A stretch of DNA of 39,894 nucleotides from Rhizobiales bacterium Ga0077556 (lineage in GTDB: Bacteria; Pseudomonadota; Alphaproteobacteria; Rhizobiales; Phreatobacteraceae): assembly GCA_001464235.1 (NCBI GenBank), contig LNFH01000323.1, positions 1 to 39,894 on the forward strand, written 5' to 3'. The translations under genes and the position numbers were made by a program. Of this stretch, positions 2,296 through 15,821 are shown piece after piece; position 1 is the first letter of the stretch; the number at the start of each line of letters is the position of its first letter. The notes under the pieces were generated by a model. It made no database searches. It saw nothing but the letters and a program-made list of their open reading frames with translations, and had not been told where the DNA came from.

Positions 2296-3549
2296 ATGTC
2301 CGATAGTACGGTGCATCCCGAAGGCGGATCGCAAACGGTGGCCGCGACCGCCCAACTCACCGGGATCCTGCGCCGCGTCGCATCGCTCGGCGATATTCTC
2401 GAACGGTCCGTCGGCGATGCCACCCACCCCCTGAAGATCCAGATCGACCGTTTCGACAGCCCGGTCCGTGCCGTGATCGAGGGCAGGCCCACTACGCTGT
2501 TCGGCACCAACAGCTATCTCGGCCTCAATTTCGACCCGCGCTGCATCGCCGCCGCCGAGACCGCCCTGAGGACCTGGGGCACCGGCTCCACCGCCTCGCG
2601 CGTCGCCAGCGGCAACCAGGCCGGCCACGCCGAGCTCGAGCGCACCATCGCCGCCTATTACGGCCGGCCGGACGCCATCGTCTTCTCGACCGGCTTCATG
2701 GCCAATCTCGGCTCCATCGGCGGCCTCGCCGCCGAGGGCGACCTCATCCTCTACGATGCCTTCTGCCACGCCAGCATCATCGATGCCTGCCGGGCCAGCG
2801 GCGCCACCTTCAAGTCCTTCCGCCACAACGACCCGGCCGATCTCGACCGCATGCTGACGGAAGCCACCGTGCCGCCCTCGCGCACCCTCGTCGTTCTCGA
2901 GGGCCTCTATTCGGTCTGGGGCGACCTCGGCGCGGTCAAGGACCTCGCCACCGTCGCCAAGAAGCACGGCGCGCTGGTGCTGGTGGACGAGGCGCACGGC
3001 CTCGGCCTCTACGGCGCCACCGGCCGCGGCGTCACCGAGGCCCAGGGCGCCGAGCATCTGGTCGATGCCGTCGTCGGCACCTTCTCCAAGTCGGTCGGCG
3101 TCATCGGCGGCTATTGCGTCACCAGCCACCCGGCCCTGAAGGCGCTGCGCTTCCTCGCCCGGTCCTACCTCTACACGGCCTCGCTGCCGCCGGCGGTCGT
3201 CGCCTCGGCCCGCACGGCCATCGGCATCATCGCCGGCGAGCCGGAGCGGCGCGCCGACCTCTGGCGCAAGGCCGAGCGCTTCTGCGCCGGCGTGGAGGCC
3301 CTCGGCTATTCCATGTGCGCGGCCCCCGGTCCCGTCGGCGCCATCAAGATGCGCGGCCTCGTCCAGGGTCTCGGCTTCTGGCGCGAGCTGCTCGAGCGCG
3401 GCATCTACGTCAACATCCTCGTGCCGCCGGCGACCCCGAGCGGCGAGGTTCTGCTGCGCTACTCGGTCTCGGCCGCCCACACCGACGCCGACATCGACCA
3501 GTTCCTCGCCATTCTGGGCGACCTGTCGCAGATGGCGCAGACCGCCTGA
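2296..3549 (+). CDS. spt: Serine palmitoyltransferase (bacterial, soluble, homodimeric type)
   Basis: Pyridoxal-phosphate enzyme that condenses L-serine with an acyl thioester to give 3-ketosphinganine, the first committed step of sphingolipid synthesis, in the cytoplasm. The 417 residues match the alpha-oxoamine synthase family. GTFSKSVG places the Schiff-base lysine at residue 265 and DEAHG places Asp231/His234, the same numbers as in Sphingomonas SPT; the FSKSVG..GGYC context is SPT-like rather than AONS- or KBL-like (those usually read FGKALG). His158 in DAFCHAS is the expected ring-stacking histidine. No membrane segment is seen. It ends 7 bases from the convergent dehydratase gene. An operon for a carrier protein and ketoacyl synthase faces it, which fits known alphaproteobacterial SPTs that lie next to an unusual acyl carrier protein. 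Confidence 0.93.
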   Translation: MSDSTVHPEGGSQTVAATAQLTGILRRVASLGDILERSVGDATHPLKIQIDRFDSPVRAVIEGRPTTLFGTNSYLGLNFDPRCIAAAETALRTWGTGSTASRVASGNQAGHAELERTIAAYYGRPDAIVFSTGFMANLGSIGGLAAEGDLILYDAFCHASIIDACRASGATFKSFRHNDPADLDRMLTEATVPPSRTLVVLEGLYSVWGDLGAVKDLATVAKKHGALVLVDEAHGLGLYGATGRGVTEAQGAEHLVDAVVGTFSKSVGVIGGYCVTSHPALKALRFLARSYLYTASLPPAVVASARTAIGIIAGEPERRADLWRKAERFCAGVEALGYSMCAAPGPVGAIKMRGLVQGLGFWRELLERGIYVNILVPPATPSGEVLLRYSVSAAHTDADIDQFLAILGDLSQMAQTA

Positions 3550-3556
3550 TCCCGGC

Positions 3557-3970
3557 TCACAGCAGGACGACGGCTTCCGCCAGCGCCGCCGCCTTGCCGT
3601 CGGGACCCTTGATGAAGATGCGCAGGGTCGCGCGGGCGCGCCCCTCCGCATGGTCCGCCCGCACCACCCGCGCCGATACCGTCACCGCCGTGCCCACCGC
3701 CACCGGCATGGCGAAGCGGCTGGAGAGCTTGGCGCAGGTGCCCTGCGGCAGCCATTCGGCGAGCGCCGTGTCCGCCAGCCCCATCAGGAGCATGCCCTGC
3801 ACGATGGCGCCGGGCAGGCCGACCTCCCGGGCCGCCGCCTCGTCCACATGGATCGGATTGTCGTCGCCGGAGGCCGCCGCGTAGCGCCGCACCATGGCCA
3901 TGTCGACGGCCGGAAAGTGCCGGTCGGGCAGCACGGTGCCGAAGGGCAGGGGATGGTCCGCGGCGGTCAC
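3557..3970 (-). CDS. MaoC-like hotdog (R)-hydroxyacyl dehydratase, catalytic half
   Basis: 137-residue single-hotdog protein. The hydratase-2 motif is clear: Asp and His in GDDNPIHVDEAAAR, followed by GLPGAIVQGM. Such enzymes remove water from 3-hydroxyacyl thioesters. I chose GTG 3970, whose last two bases form the upstream gene's stop in a GTGA overlap, because the domain needs the FGTVLPDRHF lead-in; the next Met codon would cut into the fold. It is the last gene of the operon ACP - ketoacyl synthase - half-dehydratase - this gene. With the preceding protein it resembles the split HadA/HadB arrangement of mycobacteria, where one subunit carries the catalytic residues. Predicted role: the dehydratase step in a dedicated acyl-ACP elongation cycle for sphingolipid chains (inference). 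Confidence 0.8.
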   Translation of the reverse strand: MTAADHPLPFGTVLPDRHFPAVDMAMVRRYAAASGDDNPIHVDEAAAREVGLPGAIVQGMLLMGLADTALAEWLPQGTCAKLSSRFAMPVAVGTAVTVSARVVRADHAEGRARATLRIFIKGPDGKAAALAEAVVLL

Positions 3971-4338
3971 GGCACCAGCCTCAGGACGGCGTGGAGGCGC
4001 GCCACGGGCACGTCCGCATCGCTGACCGTGGCGTCGAGGGAGAGATGGATCTCGTCCGTGCGCCGTACCTCGAACGCCAGCGACAGCGGCCGGTCGAGGG
4101 GAAGGTCGGCCGTCGCCTCCACCGTCTGCAGCTCGTGGACGGGAAGAGAGCCCGGCCGGTCGGCGGCGAGCTCGCGCACGCAATCGACCACCTCGGGCCG
4201 GGTCAGCCAGCGGATCGGATAGGTGGTCGGCGTGCGTCCGCTGGCGGCGAGCCCGAGGCTGTCCGCGAAGGCCGCGACGTCGGCGGCCGTGGCGACCACG
4301 GTGAGGGTGGCCTGGCGGGTCGCGCCGACGAGGCTCAC
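3967..4338 (-). CDS. Probable non-catalytic MaoC/hotdog partner subunit
   Basis: A 123-residue protein that I recognise only loosely. The middle (YPIRWLTRPEV...LPVHELQTVEATADLPLDRPL) looks like the N-terminal half of double-hotdog dehydratases, which lacks the Asp/His pair. It starts at GTG 4338 overlapping the ketoacyl synthase stop, and its own stop overlaps the start of the MaoC-like gene at 3970, so the three are translationally coupled. The likeliest role is a structural partner of the catalytic half, as HadA is for HadB, holding the acyl chain (inference). It could instead be a small thioesterase-like or unrelated hotdog protein. A predicted complex of the two products would test this. 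Confidence 0.6.
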   Translation of the reverse strand: MSLVGATRQATLTVVATAADVAAFADSLGLAASGRTPTTYPIRWLTRPEVVDCVRELAADRPGSLPVHELQTVEATADLPLDRPLSLAFEVRRTDEIHLSLDATVSDADVPVARLHAVLRLVP

Positions 4339-5529
4339 GCCGCCCGGCCGATGGCCAGCGAGGCGTTGATGCCGCCGAAGGCGAAGGAATTGGTCAGCGC
4401 CACGTCGAAGGCGTGCTTGCGTCCGACATTGGCGACGCAGTCGATCGGGCAGGCCGGGTCCGCCTCCAGGAAGTTGATGGTGGGGGGCACGAAACCCTCC
4501 TCCAGCGCCCGGATGGTGACCACCGCCTCGATGGCGCCGGCGGCGCCCAGCGTGTGCCCGTGGATCGGCTTGGTGGAGCTGACCGGCAGGGTGCCGAGCC
4601 GCTCGCCGAAGACGCGGCCGAGGGCCTCGCTCTCGGTGGAATCGTTGAGGATCGTCGCCGTGCCGTGGGCATTGACGTAGCCGACCGCCTCCGGCGCGAG
4701 ACCGGCATCGGCCAGCGCCAGCGCCATGGCCTCGGCCGCGCCGCCGACGTCCGGCTTCAGCATGTCCTTGGCGTCGCTGGTGGTGCCGTAGCCGAGGATG
4801 CGGCCGCGGATGCGGGCGCCGCGCGCCGCGGCGACCTCCTCGGCCTCCCTCGCCGAGCAGAAGGCCGTTGCGCCCGCGCGAGAAGGGCCGGCAGAGCTGC
4901 GGCGACAGCACGCGCAGCATCTCCCAGGCCTTCATGCCGCCCGGCGTGATGATGGCCTCGGCGCCGACGACGATGGCCCGGTCCGTCAGGCCCGCGCGGA
5001 CCATGTGGAAGGCGATGCCGAGCGCCTGGGCGGAGGAGGCGCAGGCGCTGGACACCACGAAGGTGGTGCCCGTGCAGCCGTAGACGAGGCCGACATTGGA
5101 GGCAGAGGCGCTGATCATCGCCCGCGGCACGGTCAGCGGGTCGGGCCGCTTCTGCGTCAGCGCCATGTTGCGCGAGGCAGCCTCGATGGTGCCGAGGCTG
5201 GCGATGCCCGTGCCGACGATCACCGAGGTGCGGGGGCCGAGCGGCAGGGCCTCGGCGAGGCCGGCATCCTTCACCGCCTCTTCGGCCGCGATCAGCGCCA
5301 TCAGCGTGACCTGGTCGAAGAACGAGGTCTTCAGATGCGGGAAGAAGCGCTCGAGGTCGAAGTCCTGGACCTGGGCGGCGATGCGCAGGTTGTTGCCGAA
5401 CTCGTAGTCCAGCACTATCTGCTTGACGCCCGACACGCCCGCCGCCGCCGCGCTCCAGAGGGCCTCGACCCCCTGGCCGGCAGTGGTGAGCGCACCGAGA
5501 CCGGTGACGACGACGGAGCGGGACGTCAC
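4335..5529 (-). pseudogene. Beta-ketoacyl-ACP synthase II (FabF-like), frameshifted with an apparent short deletion
   Basis: Condensing enzyme that elongates acyl-ACP with malonyl-ACP. The first ~230 residues read from GTG 5529 and carry the nucleophile Cys163 in VVSSACASS. The rest, from about 4850 to 4335, is in another frame and carries both histidines (GYVNAHGTAT and TKPIHGHTLGAAGA). The break falls at the GLLLGEG motif near 4850-4880. Aligned to FabF, the stretch AGxLVL is missing between GEG and EAEEVAAARG, so about 20 bases appear lost (20 mod 3 = 2, matching the frame change). All other family motifs are intact, so loss is recent or an assembly artefact. It starts 2 bases after the ACP stop and overlaps the next gene, consistent with one operon. 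Confidence 0.85.
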
Positions 5530-6646: not shown

Positions 6647-7414
6647 TCAGCGCCCGCCGGCGCCCCAGCCGAAATCGTGCCAGAGCCCGCGTGGGAACGG
6701 GTTCGGCAGGCGGTTGCGCTCGATCAGGCGGCGCAGGAGGGGCGGGCGCTCCCCCGTCTTCCAGCTGCCGAGGAAATGGTGGCGGCAGAGAATGCGCCGG
6801 CCGAGCAGCGGCAAGTCGGCGTAGAGGTCCGGCGGCACCCAGCCGATCTGGTGCAGCACGTCGACGTCCGCGGGACGGGCGGCGTAGAAGAACCGGGTCA
6901 GCGCCTTCGGTCCGGTCGCATCCTCGATGTCGCGGCGCTCCGTCACCGGCCGTTCCGACAGGCGGCGGACCATCTCCGCGGCGAAGGCGGCGAGGAACGG
7001 ATGGCCGGCCGGCCCCGCGAAGATGCAGTTGGCGATCTGGAACGGCTGGTCGTAGCCGAGCTCGCGCTGGCGGATGCCCGTCACCTGCGCCTCGATGCCG
7101 AAGACCGCCCGGTCCCCCGCCAGCACCGGCCCGAGCGGCGCCATGCACTCCATGTCCATGTCGGCGTAGATGCCGCCCTCGGCGAGCACCACGAGCACGC
7201 GGAACAGGTCGGCCTTCTGCACCGGGAAGCGGATGCCCTCGTAGGTCGCCGCATAGGCCGGGAACCGCTCCGCGACGAAGCGGTCCATGGCCGCGTCGTC
7301 GTAGAAGCGCAGGGTGATCGCCGGATTGTGGCGCACGAAGCTCTGCTGGAAGGCGGCGAGATCGGCGGGCAGCTCGGCCGATTTCCAGGTCTGGTGGAGG
7401 ACGAGGGGGATCAC
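6647..7414 (-). CDS. GT32-type glycosyltransferase (Och1/Sur1-like DXD sugar transferase)
   Basis: 255 residues starting at GTG 7414, overlapping the LptG-like stop as GTGA. The N-terminus IPLVLHQTWKS and the middle KADLFRVLVVLAEGGIYADMDMECM are the hallmarks of the DXD-containing glycosyltransferase sugar-binding family (PF04488); DMD is the metal/nucleotide-sugar site. The family includes yeast Och1 and Sur1/Csh1; the latter mannosylates inositol phosphorylceramide, and many bacterial members build capsules or O-antigens. Placed at the end of an LptF-LptG operon within an inositol-sphingolipid island, the attractive reading is transfer of a hexose to the inositol head group (inference). No signal peptide; probably cytoplasmic or peripheral. 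The acceptor and sugar cannot be told from sequence. Confidence 0.85.
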   Translation of the reverse strand: MIPLVLHQTWKSAELPADLAAFQQSFVRHNPAITLRFYDDAAMDRFVAERFPAYAATYEGIRFPVQKADLFRVLVVLAEGGIYADMDMECMAPLGPVLAGDRAVFGIEAQVTGIRQRELGYDQPFQIANCIFAGPAGHPFLAAFAAEMVRRLSERPVTERRDIEDATGPKALTRFFYAARPADVDVLHQIGWVPPDLYADLPLLGRRILCRHHFLGSWKTGERPPLLRRLIERNRLPNPFPRGLWHDFGWGAGGR

Positions 7415-8610
7415 GAAGGCTCCGGACGCGACAGCACGGTGGGCGAGGGGCCGCCTCGCCCGGCCCGCTCGATGCGCGCCATCAGGCCGAGGCCGGTGGC
7501 GATCATCGCCAGCGGCATGAACCACGCCGCGAACAGGGGAGGCAACTGCCCGTATTCGCCGAGCCAGACGACGACGTTGTTGGTCACGTAGAGGAAATAG
7601 CCGGCGAGCCCGATCAGGATCATCGGCTTGAACAGGGTGCGCTGGGCGAGGAGCGTCATGGCCAGCGCCGAGGCCATCAGCATCATGCCGAGCGGCAGCA
7701 CCGCCTGGGCGATCCTGACGTGCCACCAGGCCCGGTAGGAGGGCTCCTGGACCCCCGGCAGGCTCGCCAGGGCCGCCAGCGTCCCCTGCGGGAGATAGCG
7801 CGCGTCGATGCCGAGATTGGCGAGCCAGAGAGGCTGCAGCGGCAGGGCGATGCGCTCCTCGGCAAAGCGCCGGACCTCGCCGACCCCCGCAGCCTCGCCG
7901 GTCGGCGCGATCCAGCGGCTGCCGTCCCGGAAGACCCAGATCCCCGGCGCATCGCCCGGCGAGGCGCTGGCGGCCGAGACGCGGCCGGTCAGCCGTCCGC
8001 CCTCCGACAGTTCGAACAGCTGCACGTCGACCAGCGTCCGGTTGCGGAAGTCGACCCGCGCCTGGACCATGTGGTTGGCGAGCACGATCCAGCGCCGCTC
8101 GTCCGGCTTCAGCCGCCGGTCGAAGCGCTCGCCGTAGCTGCCGAGGCGGCTCTCGATCTGCACGGCGACGGCGGCCGGGCGCAGAAACGTCAGCGCCGCC
8201 ACCTGCAGCGCCCCGAACGCCGCTCCGAGGAGGAGGAGCGGCATCAGCGCCTGCAATGGCGAACGCCCGCCGTTCCACACGACGATGCGCTCCCGCGACT
8301 GCGTCAGCGTGATCTCCGACCAGAACAGGCCCATGAAACAGGCGAGCGGCAGCAGGTTGCCGATGACGTCGCAGATGCGCAGCAAGAGGTACCAGCCCAT
8401 CAGCAGGGCGACGCTCGCGGCGCCCCCGCCGGCCGCGGCGACGATCCGCTCGGCGCGCGAGGCGAGGTCGAGCGTCAGGGCGACGATCAGGAGGGCGGCC
8501 GCCACCGTCCCGACATGGCTCGCATGGGCGAGCGTCAGCGTGCGGGTGAAGGTGCCGAAGGGCACGAGGCCGAAGCGCCGGCCGGCCGGGGGAGCGGGAG
8601 CGTCTGTCAC
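7411..8610 (-). CDS. LptG-like permease (YjgP/YjgQ family)
   Basis: 399 residues from GTG 8610, overlapping the upstream LptF-like stop (GTGA). Membrane segments lie at both ends (FTRTLTLAHASHVGTVAAALLIVALTLDL in two parts, WYLLLRICDVIGNLLPLACF, later VLPLGMMLMASALAMTLL, ILIGLAGYFLYVTNNVVVW and a last helix), with a periplasmic beta-jellyroll domain between them (~130-290). That is the LptF/LptG plan of six helices and one periplasmic domain. In the LPS exporter this subunit pairs with LptF and the ATPase LptB to extract lipid from the inner membrane. Its operon (LptF-like, this, GT32) and the nearby LptB-like gene suggest a set specialised for a sphingolipid rather than LPS (inference). Caulobacter also has Lpt-type permeases linked to sphingolipid genes. 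Confidence 0.85.
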   Translation of the reverse strand: MTDAPAPPAGRRFGLVPFGTFTRTLTLAHASHVGTVAAALLIVALTLDLASRAERIVAAAGGGAASVALLMGWYLLLRICDVIGNLLPLACFMGLFWSEITLTQSRERIVVWNGGRSPLQALMPLLLLGAAFGALQVAALTFLRPAAVAVQIESRLGSYGERFDRRLKPDERRWIVLANHMVQARVDFRNRTLVDVQLFELSEGGRLTGRVSAASASPGDAPGIWVFRDGSRWIAPTGEAAGVGEVRRFAEERIALPLQPLWLANLGIDARYLPQGTLAALASLPGVQEPSYRAWWHVRIAQAVLPLGMMLMASALAMTLLAQRTLFKPMILIGLAGYFLYVTNNVVVWLGEYGQLPPLFAAWFMPLAMIATGLGLMARIERAGRGGPSPTVLSRPEPS

Positions 8611-9821
8611 GAGCGGCTGAGCCCCGGTCGCGCAATGGCCGAGGAACGCAGCGCCACGGCGGCGACGAGCCCGACGCCGATGGCGAGGCCGCCGGTGGCG
8701 ACGAGGCCCAGCACGGGCCACAGGCCGGCCGCCAGGATCCCCGTGAGCACGGATGTGCCGGCGATCTCCATCGTCATCAGCCCGGCGCAGGCGAGGGGCA
8801 GCACGAAGGCCTGGTTGGCCCGCGTCGTGAACGACAGCGCCAGCAGGGCGATGAGCGGCGCGATGAGGCAGAGGAGGCTGCGCCCGATGCGCTTGGCGAG
8901 CTCCAGCCTCTCGCCGGTGCGCGCGAAGGCGCCGGTGAAGAGCTCCGGCAGGGTCAGTTCCGCGATGTTCCGCCCCCGCGGATCGAAGGGCACCACGTCG
9001 TTGAAGACGAGGCTCTGCTGGGTGGCCGTGCCGCGCAGCGAGGATGTGGGCGCGACGGGCCGCTGCTGCGCGGTGGTCGCGCCCGCAGCCGGCGCCGGGA
9101 AGTCGTCCACGGCGAAGTCGTAGAGGTGGAGGGCGACGCGCCCGTCGATGTCGGGGCCGATCAGGCGGGTGCCGTTGGCGACCACCACCCGCTCGCCGCC
9201 CGCCTCGGTCGGCTGGCGCACGAAGAGGCGCGGCGTCGGCATCCCGTCCGAGCGCGGCATCACCGCGACCGTGCCGATCCGCGTTTCGAACAGTCGGTTG
9301 GCGGTGACCGTGCCGCCGGTGAGCGCGTGGTACTGCGCCGAGAACATCACCAGCCGGAAGGCATAGCGCGACAGGGGATCGACGAATCCGCCGACGGCGA
9401 GGGCCGCGATCTGCGCCCAGATGCCGATGCGGATGACGAGCCGGATGAGGCCGTGCGGCGGGATGCCGAGGCTCGACAGCATCAGGAACTCGCGGTCCTC
9501 GCGCAGGCCGAGCGCCACGCGGTAGACGGCGATGAGAATGGCGGTGGGCAGGGCGAGTTCGAACACCTGCGGCAGCATGGTCGCCATCATGGCGACCGTC
9601 TTGGAAAGCGGAGCGCGGATCTTCAGCACCTCCTCCAAGAGGCCGGAGATGAGCTGCTCGGCGACGAAGATGCTCTCGATGAGCAGCAGCACGAGGGCCA
9701 CCTGCACCGTGACGTCGCGCATGATGCGGTGGGCCTGCTGGCTGGGGAAGCGCCGCGCCCGTCCGCCGAGATCGAGTTGCGAGACGAGCCGCCTTTTCAG
9801 GGCGAAGAGGCTTCTCACCAC
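8607..9821 (-). CDS. LptF-like permease (YjgP/YjgQ family)
   Basis: 404 residues, first gene of the operon toward the GT32 gene. The start is GTG 9821 (a second GTG follows at 9818), with AGGG about nine bases upstream; no ATG is available. N-terminal helices include VALVLLLIESIFVAEQLISG and a coupling-helix region ALGLREDREFLMLSSLGIPP, where the acidic/Arg-rich REDRE stretch matches the site that contacts LptB. A periplasmic domain follows (~150-300), then three C-terminal helices. Expected function: inner-membrane half of an ABC lipid extractor. The promoter must lie in the 97 bases shared with the divergent ceramide synthase gene, which ties lipid synthesis to export. An LptA, LptC or LptD partner is not in the window. 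Confidence 0.86.
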   Translation of the reverse strand: MVRSLFALKRRLVSQLDLGGRARRFPSQQAHRIMRDVTVQVALVLLLIESIFVAEQLISGLLEEVLKIRAPLSKTVAMMATMLPQVFELALPTAILIAVYRVALGLREDREFLMLSSLGIPPHGLIRLVIRIGIWAQIAALAVGGFVDPLSRYAFRLVMFSAQYHALTGGTVTANRLFETRIGTVAVMPRSDGMPTPRLFVRQPTEAGGERVVVANGTRLIGPDIDGRVALHLYDFAVDDFPAPAAGATTAQQRPVAPTSSLRGTATQQSLVFNDVVPFDPRGRNIAELTLPELFTGAFARTGERLELAKRIGRSLLCLIAPLIALLALSFTTRANQAFVLPLACAGLMTMEIAGTSVLTGILAAGLWPVLGLVATGGLAIGVGLVAAVALRSSAIARPGLSRS

Positions 9822-9918: not shown

Positions 9919-11055
9919 TTGCAGATTGCTGAAGCACGGTCACGGCGCGATTTTAGACGCTTCGTCCGCATCCCGCGACAACTCTATTCGGGCATGCCCG
10001 GATTTCAGCCGCCGCTGGATCTGGAACGGACGCTTCTGCTCGACCCGCGCGTCGCCCCCTTCTTCACCCACGGCGAGGCCGCCTTCTTCATCGCCAGCGA
10101 CGACGACGGCCGGCCGCTCGGGCGCATCTCGGCCCAGTTCGACCGGCTGACCCCGGCCGGGCGCACCGCCACAGGTCATTTCGGCTGCCTCGACGCGGTG
10201 GACGATCCCGCCGTGGTCGCCGGCCTCGTCGCGGCCGCCCGCGCCTGGCACGCGGCGCGCGGCCGGCACCGCATCGAGGGGCCCTTCACCTATTCCATCA
10301 ACGAGGAAGTCGGCGTCCAGGTCGAGGGCCAGTACCGGGGCGACATGGTGCTCATGCCCTGGCATCCGCCCTATCTCGGCGCCCATGTGGAGGCGGCGGG
10401 TCTCGTGCCGGTGAAGGACCTCCTCGCCTATTCCGTGCCCATCGAGCAGGGCGCCCGCTGGCGCGGCCGGCGCTTCGCCGAGCTCCCCGAGGGCAGCCGC
10501 ATCACCGTCCGCAAGCTCCGGCTCCGCGACCTCGCCGGCGAAGCCGCCATCATGACCGACCTCTTCAATGCCTCCTGGCGCGACAACTGGGGCTTCATCC
10601 CGCTCGCGGCGGCCGAGCTGACGACGCTGCTCCGGGTGATCCGGCCGATCCTGCGCGCCGACCACGCCGTCTTCCTCGAGCATGAGGGGCGCCCCGCCGC
10701 CTTCGCCTTCATCATGCCCAACGGCTACGAGCTCTTCCGCGGCTTCGGGGGCCGCCTCCTGCCGTTCAACTGGGCGCGGATCGCCTGGCGCATCCTGACC
10801 CATCGCTTCGCCTCCAAGCGCGTCACCCTGCTCGGCGTCCGGACCGACCTGCGCGACACCATTCTCGGCGCACGGCTGCCGATCGTCGCCATCGCGCGCC
10901 TCATCGCCGCCAATCCACAGCCGGCGGAGATCGAGATGAGCTGGATTCTTGACGACAATGTGCGTATGCGCCGTATCATCGAAGGCGCGGGCGGGACGGT
11001 GTCCAAGCGCTATCGGGTCTATGCGGACCCGGTGACGGAAGGTGAGGGGCCATGA
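9919..11055 (+). CDS. GNAT-fold acyltransferase, probable bacterial ceramide synthase
   Basis: 378 residues of the large GNAT-like family (YghO-type) to which the Caulobacter ceramide synthase belongs. The opening RRDFRRFVRIPRQLYSGMPGFQPPLDLERTLLLD (given here only as the family signature in residues 9-42) and HGEAAFFIA...GRISAQ are characteristic, as are a PFTYSINEEVGVQVEG segment and FNASWRDNWGF. It acylates the amino group of 3-ketosphinganine or sphinganine (family knowledge plus context). The start is unusual: the only good candidate is TTG 9919 with GGGGA nine bases upstream, since the first in-frame ATG would delete the conserved N-terminus. Its last four bases (ATGA) overlap the PgpA-like gene, indicating tight coupling. 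Divergent from the LptF-like gene. Confidence 0.82.
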   Translation: MQIAEARSRRDFRRFVRIPRQLYSGMPGFQPPLDLERTLLLDPRVAPFFTHGEAAFFIASDDDGRPLGRISAQFDRLTPAGRTATGHFGCLDAVDDPAVVAGLVAAARAWHAARGRHRIEGPFTYSINEEVGVQVEGQYRGDMVLMPWHPPYLGAHVEAAGLVPVKDLLAYSVPIEQGARWRGRRFAELPEGSRITVRKLRLRDLAGEAAIMTDLFNASWRDNWGFIPLAAAELTTLLRVIRPILRADHAVFLEHEGRPAAFAFIMPNGYELFRGFGGRLLPFNWARIAWRILTHRFASKRVTLLGVRTDLRDTILGARLPIVAIARLIAANPQPAEIEMSWILDDNVRMRRIIEGAGGTVSKRYRVYADPVTEGEGP

Positions 11056-11561
11056 GCACGGCAGACGGTACGGGCGTCCTCGCCCCGGTGGACGCCGCCT
11101 TCATGGTGAGCCACCCCGCGTCCCTGCTGGCCCTGGTGGGCGGCGCCGGCCTCTTTCCCTACGGCCCCGGCACCCTCGGCGCCCTCGTCGGCATCCCGCT
11201 TGGCCTCGCTCTCCAGGCAGCATCCCCCGCCGTCGCCATCGCCGTCATCGCCGCCGCCTTCGCCATCGGGGTCTGGGCCTGCGGCGTCACCGCCGTCCGG
11301 TCGGGGCTCCACGACCATCCCGCCATCGTCTTCGACGAGACCTGGGCCATGGCCGCCGTCGTGGCCTTCTCGCCGCCGGGCCTGCGGGCGGTGATCGTCG
11401 GCTTCGTCGCGTTCCGCCTGTTCGACATCCTCAAGCCCTGGCCCATCGGCCATATCGACGAGAACGTCGCCGAGGGCTTCGGCATCATGCTGGACGACGC
11501 GGTGGCGGGCGTCTTCGCCCTGGCTCTCGTGTTCGGCCTGTCGCGGCTCGGCTGGCTCTAG
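11052..11561 (+). CDS. PgpA-family phosphatase, candidate phosphatidylinositol-phosphate phosphatase
   Basis: 169 residues with four hydrophobic segments and the PgpA pattern: FPYGPGTLGALVGIPLG near residue 38, an Asp/Glu site in FDETWAM, FRLFDILKPWPI, and EGFGIMLDDAVAG near the end. Ordinary PgpA removes phosphate from phosphatidylglycerol phosphate. Its start overlaps the stop of the ceramide synthase gene (ATGA), so it is probably not the housekeeping enzyme. In Bacteroides a PgpA-like protein is reported as the phosphatase for phosphatidylinositol phosphate (my recollection), and the inositol synthase and CDP-alcohol transferase found here would supply exactly that substrate. The assignment to phosphatidylinositol phosphate is therefore inference from context; the family call is secure. 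Confidence 0.85.
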   Translation: MSTADGTGVLAPVDAAFMVSHPASLLALVGGAGLFPYGPGTLGALVGIPLGLALQAASPAVAIAVIAAAFAIGVWACGVTAVRSGLHDHPAIVFDETWAMAAVVAFSPPGLRAVIVGFVAFRLFDILKPWPIGHIDENVAEGFGIMLDDAVAGVFALALVFGLSRLGWL

Positions 11562-13728: not shown

Positions 13729-14694
13729 ATGATCGTGACAGGCGCCGCCGGCCTTCTCGGTAACACCGTGTTGCGGGCCGCCGCGGCGCGGGGTCTGGAG
13801 CCCACCGCCTGGCTGCGCGGCAGGGCGGGCGAGAGGACGCTCGCCGGGCTCGACCTCCCGGTCGTCTTCGCCGATCTCGCCGTCGATCCCCTGGAGAAGC
13901 ATCTCGAAAACGCGGGAATCGTCGTGCATTGCGCCGCCAGGGTGGAGATCGGCAGCACCGGGGCCGAGGCCTCCCGCCGCGACAACGTGCTGGCGACGGC
14001 GCGGCTCGCGAGCGCCTGCCGTGCAGTCGGCGCACTTCTGATCCACATCTCGACCGTCGACACGCTGGCCTGGGGAACACGGGAGGCGCCGGGCGACGAG
14101 ACGCCCGCCGCACCCCATCCACGTGATACCACTTACGCCGCCACCAAGCGGCTCGCCGAGGCGGCGGTGCTCGCCGAGATGGAGCGGGGACTCGCCGCGA
14201 CCATCGTCCACCCCGGCTTCCTCCTCGGCCCCTGGGACTGGAAACCCTCCTCCGGGCGCATGCTGCTCGCCGCCGTGCGCGGGCCCGTCGGCATCGCCCC
14301 GCCGGGGGGCAACGATTTCTGCCACGCCGGCGCCGTCGCCGAGGCCATCCTGACGCTCGCCGACCGGCCGCCGCCCTCTCGGCGCTACGTCCTGTCGGGC
14401 GAGGCGCTGACCTATGCCGAGGCCTTCCGTCAGATGCGGCGGGCGGCGGGACGCCCGCCTCGCGTCGTCGAGGCGCCGGAGGCGCTGGTACGCGCCGCCG
14501 GGTGGGCCGGCGATCTCTGGGGACGGATCAGCGGCCGCGAGCCGGCCCTCAACGGCGCCGCGGCGGAGGTTGCCTGCGCGCCGCACCACTTTTCCTCCGC
14601 CCGGGCCATCGCGGAGATCGGCTACCGGCCCCGCCCCGCCATCGAGGCCATGCGCGAGGCGTGGACATGGTTCGTCCAACGCGGCTATGCGTGA
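13729..14694 (+). CDS. Extended SDR (NAD-dependent epimerase type), candidate ceramide reductase
   Basis: 321-residue extended short-chain dehydrogenase. It has the TGAAGLLG cofactor motif from residue 4, [14 protein letters not shown] and YAATK carrying the Tyr/Lys pair, then [10 protein letters not shown] and a substrate domain ending with [14 protein letters not shown]. In Caulobacter the ceramide reductase CerR is an epimerase-like extended SDR encoded with spt and the ceramide synthase, so this is the best local candidate for reducing the 3-keto group of the sphingoid base (inference). It could instead modify a nucleotide sugar or sterol-like substrate. It starts at ATG 13729, divergent from the inositol-phosphate synthase, and is followed 36 bases later by a glycosyltransferase. 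Confidence 0.8.
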
Positions 14695-14730: not shown

Positions 14731-15821
14731 GTGAAGATCGCACTCGTCAGCGACTGGTTCGTGCCGCGCCTCGGCGGCATCGAGCTGCAGATGCGCGATC
14801 TCGCCCTGGCGCTGCGCGAGCGCGGCCACGAGGTCCGCGTCATCTGCGGTGTCCCAGGCGAGGCGCAGGTCGACGGCATCCCGGTCGAGCGCCTGCCCGG
14901 CCCGCGGCTGCCCGGTTTCGGCATCGCCTTCACGCCGGCGGTCTTTGCGGCGCTCAGGGCCGCCATCGACGCTGGGGGGGACGAGGTCGTCCACGTCCAT
15001 TGCGGCAACGTCGCGCCCATCGCCCACCACGCCGTGCAGCACTGCATCCACCGCGGCATTCCGGCCGTCGCCACCTTCCACTCGGTGCTGAAATATTACG
15101 ACCTGCCGCTGATGGCGCTGAACGCGCTGCATGGCTATGCCCGCTCCGCGGTCCGCTTCTCCGCGGTCTCGACGGTGGCCGGCGCGGCCTTGCGCCCGCT
15201 TCTGGGCGACCGGGCGGTCACCGCCATTCCCAACGGCATCGACCTCGCCTGGTGGCGCCGGCCGGGCGACTTCGCTTCGAGTTCGTCTCGGTGACGCGGC
15301 TGCAGAAGCGCAAGCGGGCGCGCTGGCTGGTCAAGGCCTTCGCCGCGGCGGTGGCGCACCTGCCCCCCGACGCGGCGCGGCTGACGGTGGTCGGAGACGG
15401 CGACGAGATGGCCGCCATCGCCGCCATCATCCGCCGGGCCGGCATGGAGGACCGGACCGTCCTCGCCGGCCGCGAGACGCGCGAGGCGATCCGCGACCGT
15501 CTCCATCGCGCCGACGTCTTCCTGCTGGCGTCCCGGCTGGAGGCCTTCGGCATCGCCGCCCTCGAGGCGCGCGCCGCCGGCCTGCCGGTCGTCACCATGG
15601 CGCAGTCGGGGGCCCGCGACTTCCTCCGGGACGGCGAGGACGCCATCCTCGCGGCGGACGATCGCGAACTGACGGACGCCATCCGCCGGCTGGTCGAGGA
15701 TCCCTCGCTCCGCGGGCGGCTCGTCGCGGCGGCCGCCCTGCCGCCGGCCGGCGTCGACTGGCGCGACGTCGCCCCGCTCTACGAGGCGGAATATCAGGCG
15801 GCGCGGGCCGCGGTCGCCTAG
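14731..15821 (+). pseudogene. GT4-family glycosyltransferase, single frameshift
   Basis: Retaining GT-B glycosyltransferase of about 363 residues if repaired. The N-half reads from GTG 14731: VSDWFVPRLGGIELQMRDLALAL is the GT4 opening, with HVHCGNVAPIAHH, VATFHSVLKYY and IPNGID. After about 15270 the frame must shift by one base (total 1091 bases, one short of a multiple of three) to continue with FVSVTRLQKRKRARWLVKAF, the donor-site Glu region SRLEAFGIAALEARAAGLPVV and the C-terminal helix. The break lies at a G/C-rich stretch (CCGGGCGAC), where a miscalled base is easily imagined. PimA, which mannosylates phosphatidylinositol, is in this family, so an inositol-lipid role is possible but not shown. 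Its stop overlaps the convergent flippase gene in CTAG. Confidence 0.82.

Follow-up and report, generated by a model that had tools for sequence, protein, structure and literature searches.

A GT32 glycosyltransferase gene in a predicted inositol sphingolipid island of Phreatobacter, with alleles that appear to be swapped between species

In yeast, Sur1 and Csh1 are the catalytic subunits of mannosyl-inositol-phosphorylceramide (MIPC) synthase and belong to glycosyltransferase family GT32. Inositol sphingolipids of bacteria are known mainly from Bacteroidota. Serotype conversion of O-antigens is brought about by the exchange of glycosyltransferase genes; to our knowledge, no such exchange has been described for sphingolipids. 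The inositol-lipid pathway of Bacteroides (locus BT_1522-BT_1526) comprises a myo-inositol-phosphate synthase (MIPS), a phosphatidylinositol-phosphate synthase (PIPS), a PgpA-like protein, and the Aur1-like protein BT_1522 (PMC9246714). The sphingolipid cluster of Caulobacter (CC_1168-CC_1152) includes LptC2, LptF2, and LptG2, the last two of which have been proposed as sphingolipid exporters (PMC11324152). In the open-access literature, we found no described case of a bacterial GT32 or of a glycosylated bacterial inositol phosphoceramide. Likewise, no bacterial pathway to glycosylated forms like those of fungi (MIPC) or plants (GIPC) was described in the literature searched.

The window analyzed here is the whole 39,894-nucleotide stretch of a genome of Phreatobacter (Hyphomicrobiales), a soil and water bacterium. 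An earlier note on this DNA had placed a GT32 gene within an inositol-sphingolipid island, and both the sphingolipid and the inositol-lipid genes were recovered at the family level. The island extends from the serine palmitoyltransferase gene (2296) to an Aur1-like gene (21246), with the following gene content.

2296 to 3549, plus strand: serine palmitoyltransferase (SPT); NF047599, 470.9 bits (curated cutoff, 500)
3967 to 5529, minus strand: ketosynthase (KS) region; PF00109
5532 to 5888 (start not fixed), minus strand: acyl carrier protein (ACP); PF00550, 24.5 bits
5983 to 6642, plus strand: DUF4833 protein; PF16117, 86.6 bits; also adjoins PIPS and PgpA in locus L074
6647 to 7414, minus strand: GT32-family glycosyltransferase; 255 amino acids (aa), GTG start, DXD at residues 85 to 87
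7411 to 8622, minus strand: LptG-like permease of a second Lpt set; PF03739 (LptF_LptG), 113.8 bits; frame open further upstream, exact start not fixed
8607 to 9821, minus strand: LptF-like permease of the second Lpt set; PF03739, 51.4 bits
9919 to 11055, plus strand: GNAT-like protein, probable bacterial ceramide synthase by likeness to proteins of other sphingolipid loci
11052 to 11561, plus strand: PgpA-like phosphatase, probable phosphatidylinositol (PI)-phosphate phosphatase; PF04608, 120.9 bits
11792 to 12508, minus strand: LptB-like ABC ATPase; PF00005, 114 bits
12561 to 13655, minus strand: MIPS; TIGR03450, 545.9 bits (cutoff, 638)
13729 to 14694, plus strand: epimerase-family protein, putatively the ceramide reductase CerR; PF01370
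14731 to 15821, plus strand: GT4 glycosyltransferase; PF13439
15818 to 16825, minus strand: LPG_synthase_TM membrane protein, possible flippase; PF03706, 102 bits
16813 to 17553, minus strand: polysaccharide deacetylase; PF01522, 64.6 bits
18667 to 19539, minus strand: weakly GT2-like protein; PF00535, 17.6 bits, below cutoff; also in L074 and L180
19610 to 20311, plus strand: CDP-alcohol phosphotransferase, probable PIPS; PF01066
20320 to 21246, plus strand: Aur1/BT_1522-like PAP2 inositol-phosphotransferase, candidate inositol phosphorylceramide (IPC) synthase; PF14378; NF052609, 136.2 bits (cutoff, 480)

The GT32 open reading frame (ORF) had been called exactly in the earlier note, and its family assignment was borne out by a match to PF04488 (Gly_transf_sug; 39.6 bits; E value, 8.9e-10; curated cutoff, 23 bits), the only one in the window's genome. 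In an alignment of 12 orthologues, the motifs GG-[IF]-Y-A-D-[LM]-D and H-x-x-G-x-W-K were invariant or nearly so, and the DXD within GG-x-Y-x-D-x-D was invariant in all 12. A structure model built on 12 related sequences (mean pLDDT, 78; pTM, 0.82; C-terminal tail unreliable) predicts a GT-A fold resembling that of solved GT32 enzymes. The top Foldseek match of the model was the fungal Och1 structure 9n3s (E value, 2.8e-13; TM, 0.57), and Och1 was also the sole significant sequence match among solved structures in a profile search of the PDB (E value, 7.9e-11). A GG-Y-D-D motif and a C-terminal G-S-W-K motif are common to both proteins, but their identity in the structural alignment was 18%, and the substrates of Och1 are protein N-glycans. 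No membrane segment was apparent in the GT32 protein by hydropathy (maximum 19-residue Kyte-Doolittle mean, 1.25; range across the orthologues, 0.83 to 1.94).

All four Bacteroides inositol-lipid steps (MIPS, PIPS, PgpA, and a BT_1522-like protein) were found in the island in syntenic arrangement at the family level. The PIPS-like protein carries the motif DX2DGX2AR...GX3DX3D and matched NF045883 (98.9 bits) and NF040950 (124 bits), both below the cutoffs. Because the matches of MIPS, PIPS, SPT, and the Aur1-like protein all fell below the curated NCBIfam equivalog cutoffs, we infer the exact substrates of the island enzymes from family membership. The island differs from the Bacteroides locus in adding ceramide synthesis, several glycan enzymes, and an Lpt-like exporter, and in having a DUF4833 protein where Bacteroides has the GtrA protein BT_1524. 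DUF4833 accompanies PIPS and PgpA in two loci and may mark inositol-lipid clusters. With the Caulobacter cluster, the island shares SPT, ACP, acyltransferase, and reductase genes as well as second copies of LptF and LptG; the Caulobacter headgroups, however, are phosphoglycerates, and inositol is not mentioned in the text of that report (PMC11324152). The island LptF/LptG genes are a second pair besides the main pair: each of five relatives has four such genes, two of them in the island. In this respect, the pair is like LptF2/LptG2 of Caulobacter. The ORF at 9919 to 11055 had no Pfam match of its own. Its product was 30 to 41% identical to proteins in the sphingolipid loci L151, L180, and L166, the L180 counterpart matches GNAT (PF00583), and the enzyme is probably a ceramide synthase. 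In two genes, small deletions relative to locus L017 shift the frame (20 bp in the ketosynthase near 4847, minus strand, and 19 bp in GT4 near 15276). GT4 is a single 369-aa ORF in L017, and the ketosynthase frame is whole in kin, judged by spacing in relatives. Since both frames are intact in kin, the deletions may be assembly errors in this fragmented 483-contig genome; that in the ketosynthase may otherwise be recent damage. The 3' end of the ketosynthase region (about 3967 to 4335) may be a separate gene.

The GT32 gene lay in the same island slot, with the same neighbors, in all 11 other Phreatobacter genomes searched (12/12 with the window), so its placement is more than chance. The Aur1-like gene was present in all eight Phreatobacter genomes tested, and none of the other 336 Alphaproteobacteria sampled gave a match of such strength. 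The distance from the GT gene to the Aur1-like gene was about 16 kb in genomes G004 and G011; in G008, where the island is not contiguous in its second half, the Aur1-like gene is about 46 kb away. Translational coupling of GT32 to the LptG-like gene, asserted in the earlier note, holds for the window, where the GTG start and the LptG-like stop share 4 bases (GTGA), and for its nearest kin, but about 20 to 60 bases separate the genes in several relatives.

Beyond the genus, a single-sequence search of a genome contig collection gave no match, and a profile search gave matches. GT32 relatives were found in 26 genomes outside the genus in an order-wide search. Among the surroundings compared (15 of the 26, plus G044 and G026), only those of L071, in the alphaproteobacterial genome G212, contained matches to island genes other than those for SDR and ABC ATPase proteins. 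In L071, MIPS, KS, and ACP lie close to GT32; the adjoining L074 contains PIPS, PgpA, and DUF4833, and SPT and a ceramide-synthase-like gene are found elsewhere in G212 (L166). L071/L074 is a second alphaproteobacterial inositol-lipid locus. By a rough estimate, the chance of one such co-location among about 26 nongenus GT32 genomes is 0.15. As this is not negligible, L071 counts for little by itself, and the loci L180, L151, and L096 weigh more. In L071/L074, genes for an FGGY kinase, a CTP transferase, and Stealth-like and PhyH-like proteins (the last two recognized by eye) are also near PIPS, MIPS, KS, and ACP. A match in L071 to GINT1_N (PF24793), a plant glucosamine-IPC transferase domain, was considered as a second plant-like link and dropped as not specific; the domain was found in 51 of 199 Hyphomicrobiales genomes, none of which was Phreatobacter.

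In the Gemmatimonadota locus L180, the gene order is GNAT-like, GT32, SPT, epimerase, ACP, and KS. No inositol gene was found in the region shown, and the acceptor in L180 may therefore differ. In L151, also of Gemmatimonadota, GT32 shares one base with a PAP2 gene, and a deacetylase gene comes next; LPG_TM, KS, ACP, GT4, and GNAT-like genes are located further on, and the PAP2 protein is ambiguously Aur1-like (24.5 bits). The Gemmatimonadota GT32 genes L178 and L179, 64 to 65% identical to that of L151, had no sphingolipid genes alongside. The two nearest homologues outside the genus were L097 (47% identity) and L096 (46%). GT32 is near PIPS, CTP transferase, and GT4 genes in L096, from a Desulfotignum metagenome-assembled genome, and adjoins a GT2 gene, with no lipid gene, in L097. 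L096 also has an FGGY kinase, as well as a giant ketosynthase protein next to GT32; FGGY kinase and CTP transferase thus accompany PIPS in both L096 and G212. GT32 genes are repeatedly placed with sphingolipid or inositol-lipid genes, but such genes are not constant companions of the family at large. Close relatives were not found exclusively with capsule or O-antigen genes, as they would be if the earlier note's lipid reading were wrong: all orthologues are in the island, and L096 is beside PIPS and GT4.

The history of the GT32 gene differs from that of the island. A tree of nine concatenated neighbors was fully supported, and the GT32 tree conflicted with it (approximately unbiased [AU] test of GT32 against island topologies, P values of 0.007 to 6e-14). 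Forcing sisters together in the GT32 tree was rejected for L018 with L027 (P = 3e-6) and for L019 with L026 (P = 0.007), as was keeping together the window, L017, L022, L024, and L025 (P = 2e-4) or L020, L021, and L023 (P = 7e-6). GT32 identity across allele classes was 46 to 55%, against mostly 80 to 100% for its neighbors. In three expected sister pairs, it was 46, 53, and 54%, and the other island genes compared in the same three pairs were 70 to 100% identical, most of them >85%. The island tree demands at least four changes of GT32 allele class. Among the 21 island genes or gene pieces compared, GT32 is the only swapped one, which is new. Fast uniform evolution of the GT gene was rejected as the cause of its low identity, since the conflict with the island extends to the topology of the tree. 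Sliding pairwise DNA identity in three pairs of relatives (L019/L026, L018/L027, and window/L025) divided the gene as follows.

6735 to 7414, minus strand: approximate exchanged GT segment, codons 1 to about 220 to 227
6647 to 6735, minus strand: conserved 3' end of the GT gene, a RNRLPNPFPRGLWHDFGW-like tail kept across allele classes

DNA identity dropped sharply at the start of the GT gene (about 100 bases earlier in L018/L027 and window/L025) and returned to 84 to 90% at the conserved 3' end. The recovery near codon 220 indicates that the catalytic part is exchanged and the tail is kept. The slot is a case of trans-species polymorphism, the pattern expected for a surface-antigen enzyme. 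An unlikely alternative, which concerns the swapping and not the function, is that the classes are ancient paralogues sorted by differential loss. Two copies in one ancestor would also yield discordant trees, and GT divergence within a class, 0.8 to 2.3 relative to the rest of the island, indicates that the classes are old; between classes, it is up to 33-fold. However, the slot held a single copy in each of the 12 genomes, the boundaries are sharp, with flanks about 90 to 97% identical in two species pairs, and the classes do not diverge at the 3' end, as recombination in shared flanks predicts. In phage and plasmid records, only distant GT32 genes (≤35% identity) were found, and likewise in viral contigs. 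A 94-aa ORF in G008 (L030, 9114 to 9398) resembles the GT32 C-terminal tail and lies between prophage genes (tail and endolysin) and a tRNA-Val gene; it may be what remains of a GT32 allele carried by a phage.

The GT32 enzyme probably glycosylates the headgroup of the inositol phosphosphingolipid that the island around it is predicted to produce; as far as gene sequences and their arrangement can tell, there is good genomic support for a link to sphingolipid headgroup glycosylation. In the pathway that we propose, SPT, KS, ACP, the GNAT-like protein, and the epimerase would make (dihydro)ceramide, and MIPS, PIPS, and PgpA would make phosphatidylinositol, from which the Aur1-like PAP2 enzyme would join phosphoinositol to ceramide. 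GT4, the deacetylase, and the GT2-like protein would build a small glycan. GT32, a predicted soluble GT-A enzyme of a retaining family that uses a nucleotide sugar, would add a variable, probably outer sugar after or beside GT4, and the LptB/LptF/LptG-like set would transport the lipid to the outer membrane. As it has no membrane segment and requires a nucleotide sugar, GT32 should act in the cytoplasm, probably on the cytoplasmic face of the membrane. For PAP2-type enzymes, the usual site of action is the far face. In Caulobacter, the reductase CerR is located in the periplasm (PMC11087976). With GT32 in the cytoplasm and these two on the other side, glycosylation before transfer is plausible: phosphatidylinositol may receive its sugar first, and the entire glycosyl-inositol-phosphate may then be transferred onto ceramide, in contrast to the order in yeast.

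The earlier note had proposed a bacterial counterpart of MIPC synthesis. The GT32 family, the inositol-sphingolipid island, and the recurrence in other lineages uphold that proposal in part, but a specific tie to Sur1/Csh1 over Och1 or GT32 in general did not emerge. A true functional counterpart would transfer mannose from GDP-mannose directly onto the inositol of IPC, giving MIPC. This claim is weaker than that of inositol sphingolipid glycosylation, and we think it has little chance of being correct. The Phreatobacter protein and Sur1/Csh1 belong to the same broad DXD family, the proposed acceptor is likewise an inositol phosphosphingolipid, IPC-type pathway genes are alongside, and the nearest solved fold is that of Och1, a GT32 mannosyltransferase. 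SUR1 itself has been assigned to a GT32 subfamily, separate from that of OCH1, in a 2026 paper (PMC13161914); no Sur1 structure was found in a search of the PDB. However, the likeness is one of broad family alone, and Sur1/Csh1 are membrane anchored, whereas the Phreatobacter enzyme lacks a transmembrane segment. Additionally, GT4, deacetylase, and GT2-like genes share the island, so that GT32 need not add the first sugar, and allele swapping between species is easier to reconcile with a variable sugar at the outside than with a core step that stays fixed.

It is improbable that the enzyme serves LPS, capsule, or exopolysaccharide synthesis and is in the island by chance or owing to its Lpt-like neighbors: GT32 is a generalist family, the majority of the more distant relatives within the order lack island genes in their vicinity, one of the two closest homologues outside the genus (L097) adjoins a GT2 gene, and LPS and capsule genes typically show swapping of this serotype-like kind, but the slot is kept in every Phreatobacter genome examined, no O-antigen or capsule assembly genes were recognized in family scans of the island genes, the island LptF/LptG pair is not the main set, and GT32 is independently linked to SPT and GNAT-like genes in L180.

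For the reading in which GT32 glycosylates an inositol phosphosphingolipid, the swapped alleles suggest that the sugar added is outer and variable, and not a single fixed hexose. Such swapping is unlike the behavior of a fixed core enzyme and, by analogy, resembles the serotype switching of an exported surface sphingolipid. As in O-antigen serotype conversion, one glycosyltransferase slot is exchanged between conserved flanks; the slot, however, is in a sphingolipid island. Tentatively, and with less confidence than in headgroup glycosylation itself, we suggest that a glycosylated inositol phosphosphingolipid may be displayed on the surface through dedicated Lpt-like export, its outer sugar varied between species by exchange of one GT32 gene whose slot is fixed, perhaps with the aid of phages, as a sphingolipid analogue of O-antigen serotype switching, with the sugar perhaps added to phosphatidylinositol in the cytoplasm before transfer. 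The island provides a full set of genes that can be tested in environmental bacteria available in culture. If the single-gene exchange is true, a sphingolipid could face diversifying pressure of the same kind as O-antigens do, and this would provide an indirect, testable sign of its exposure at the cell surface.
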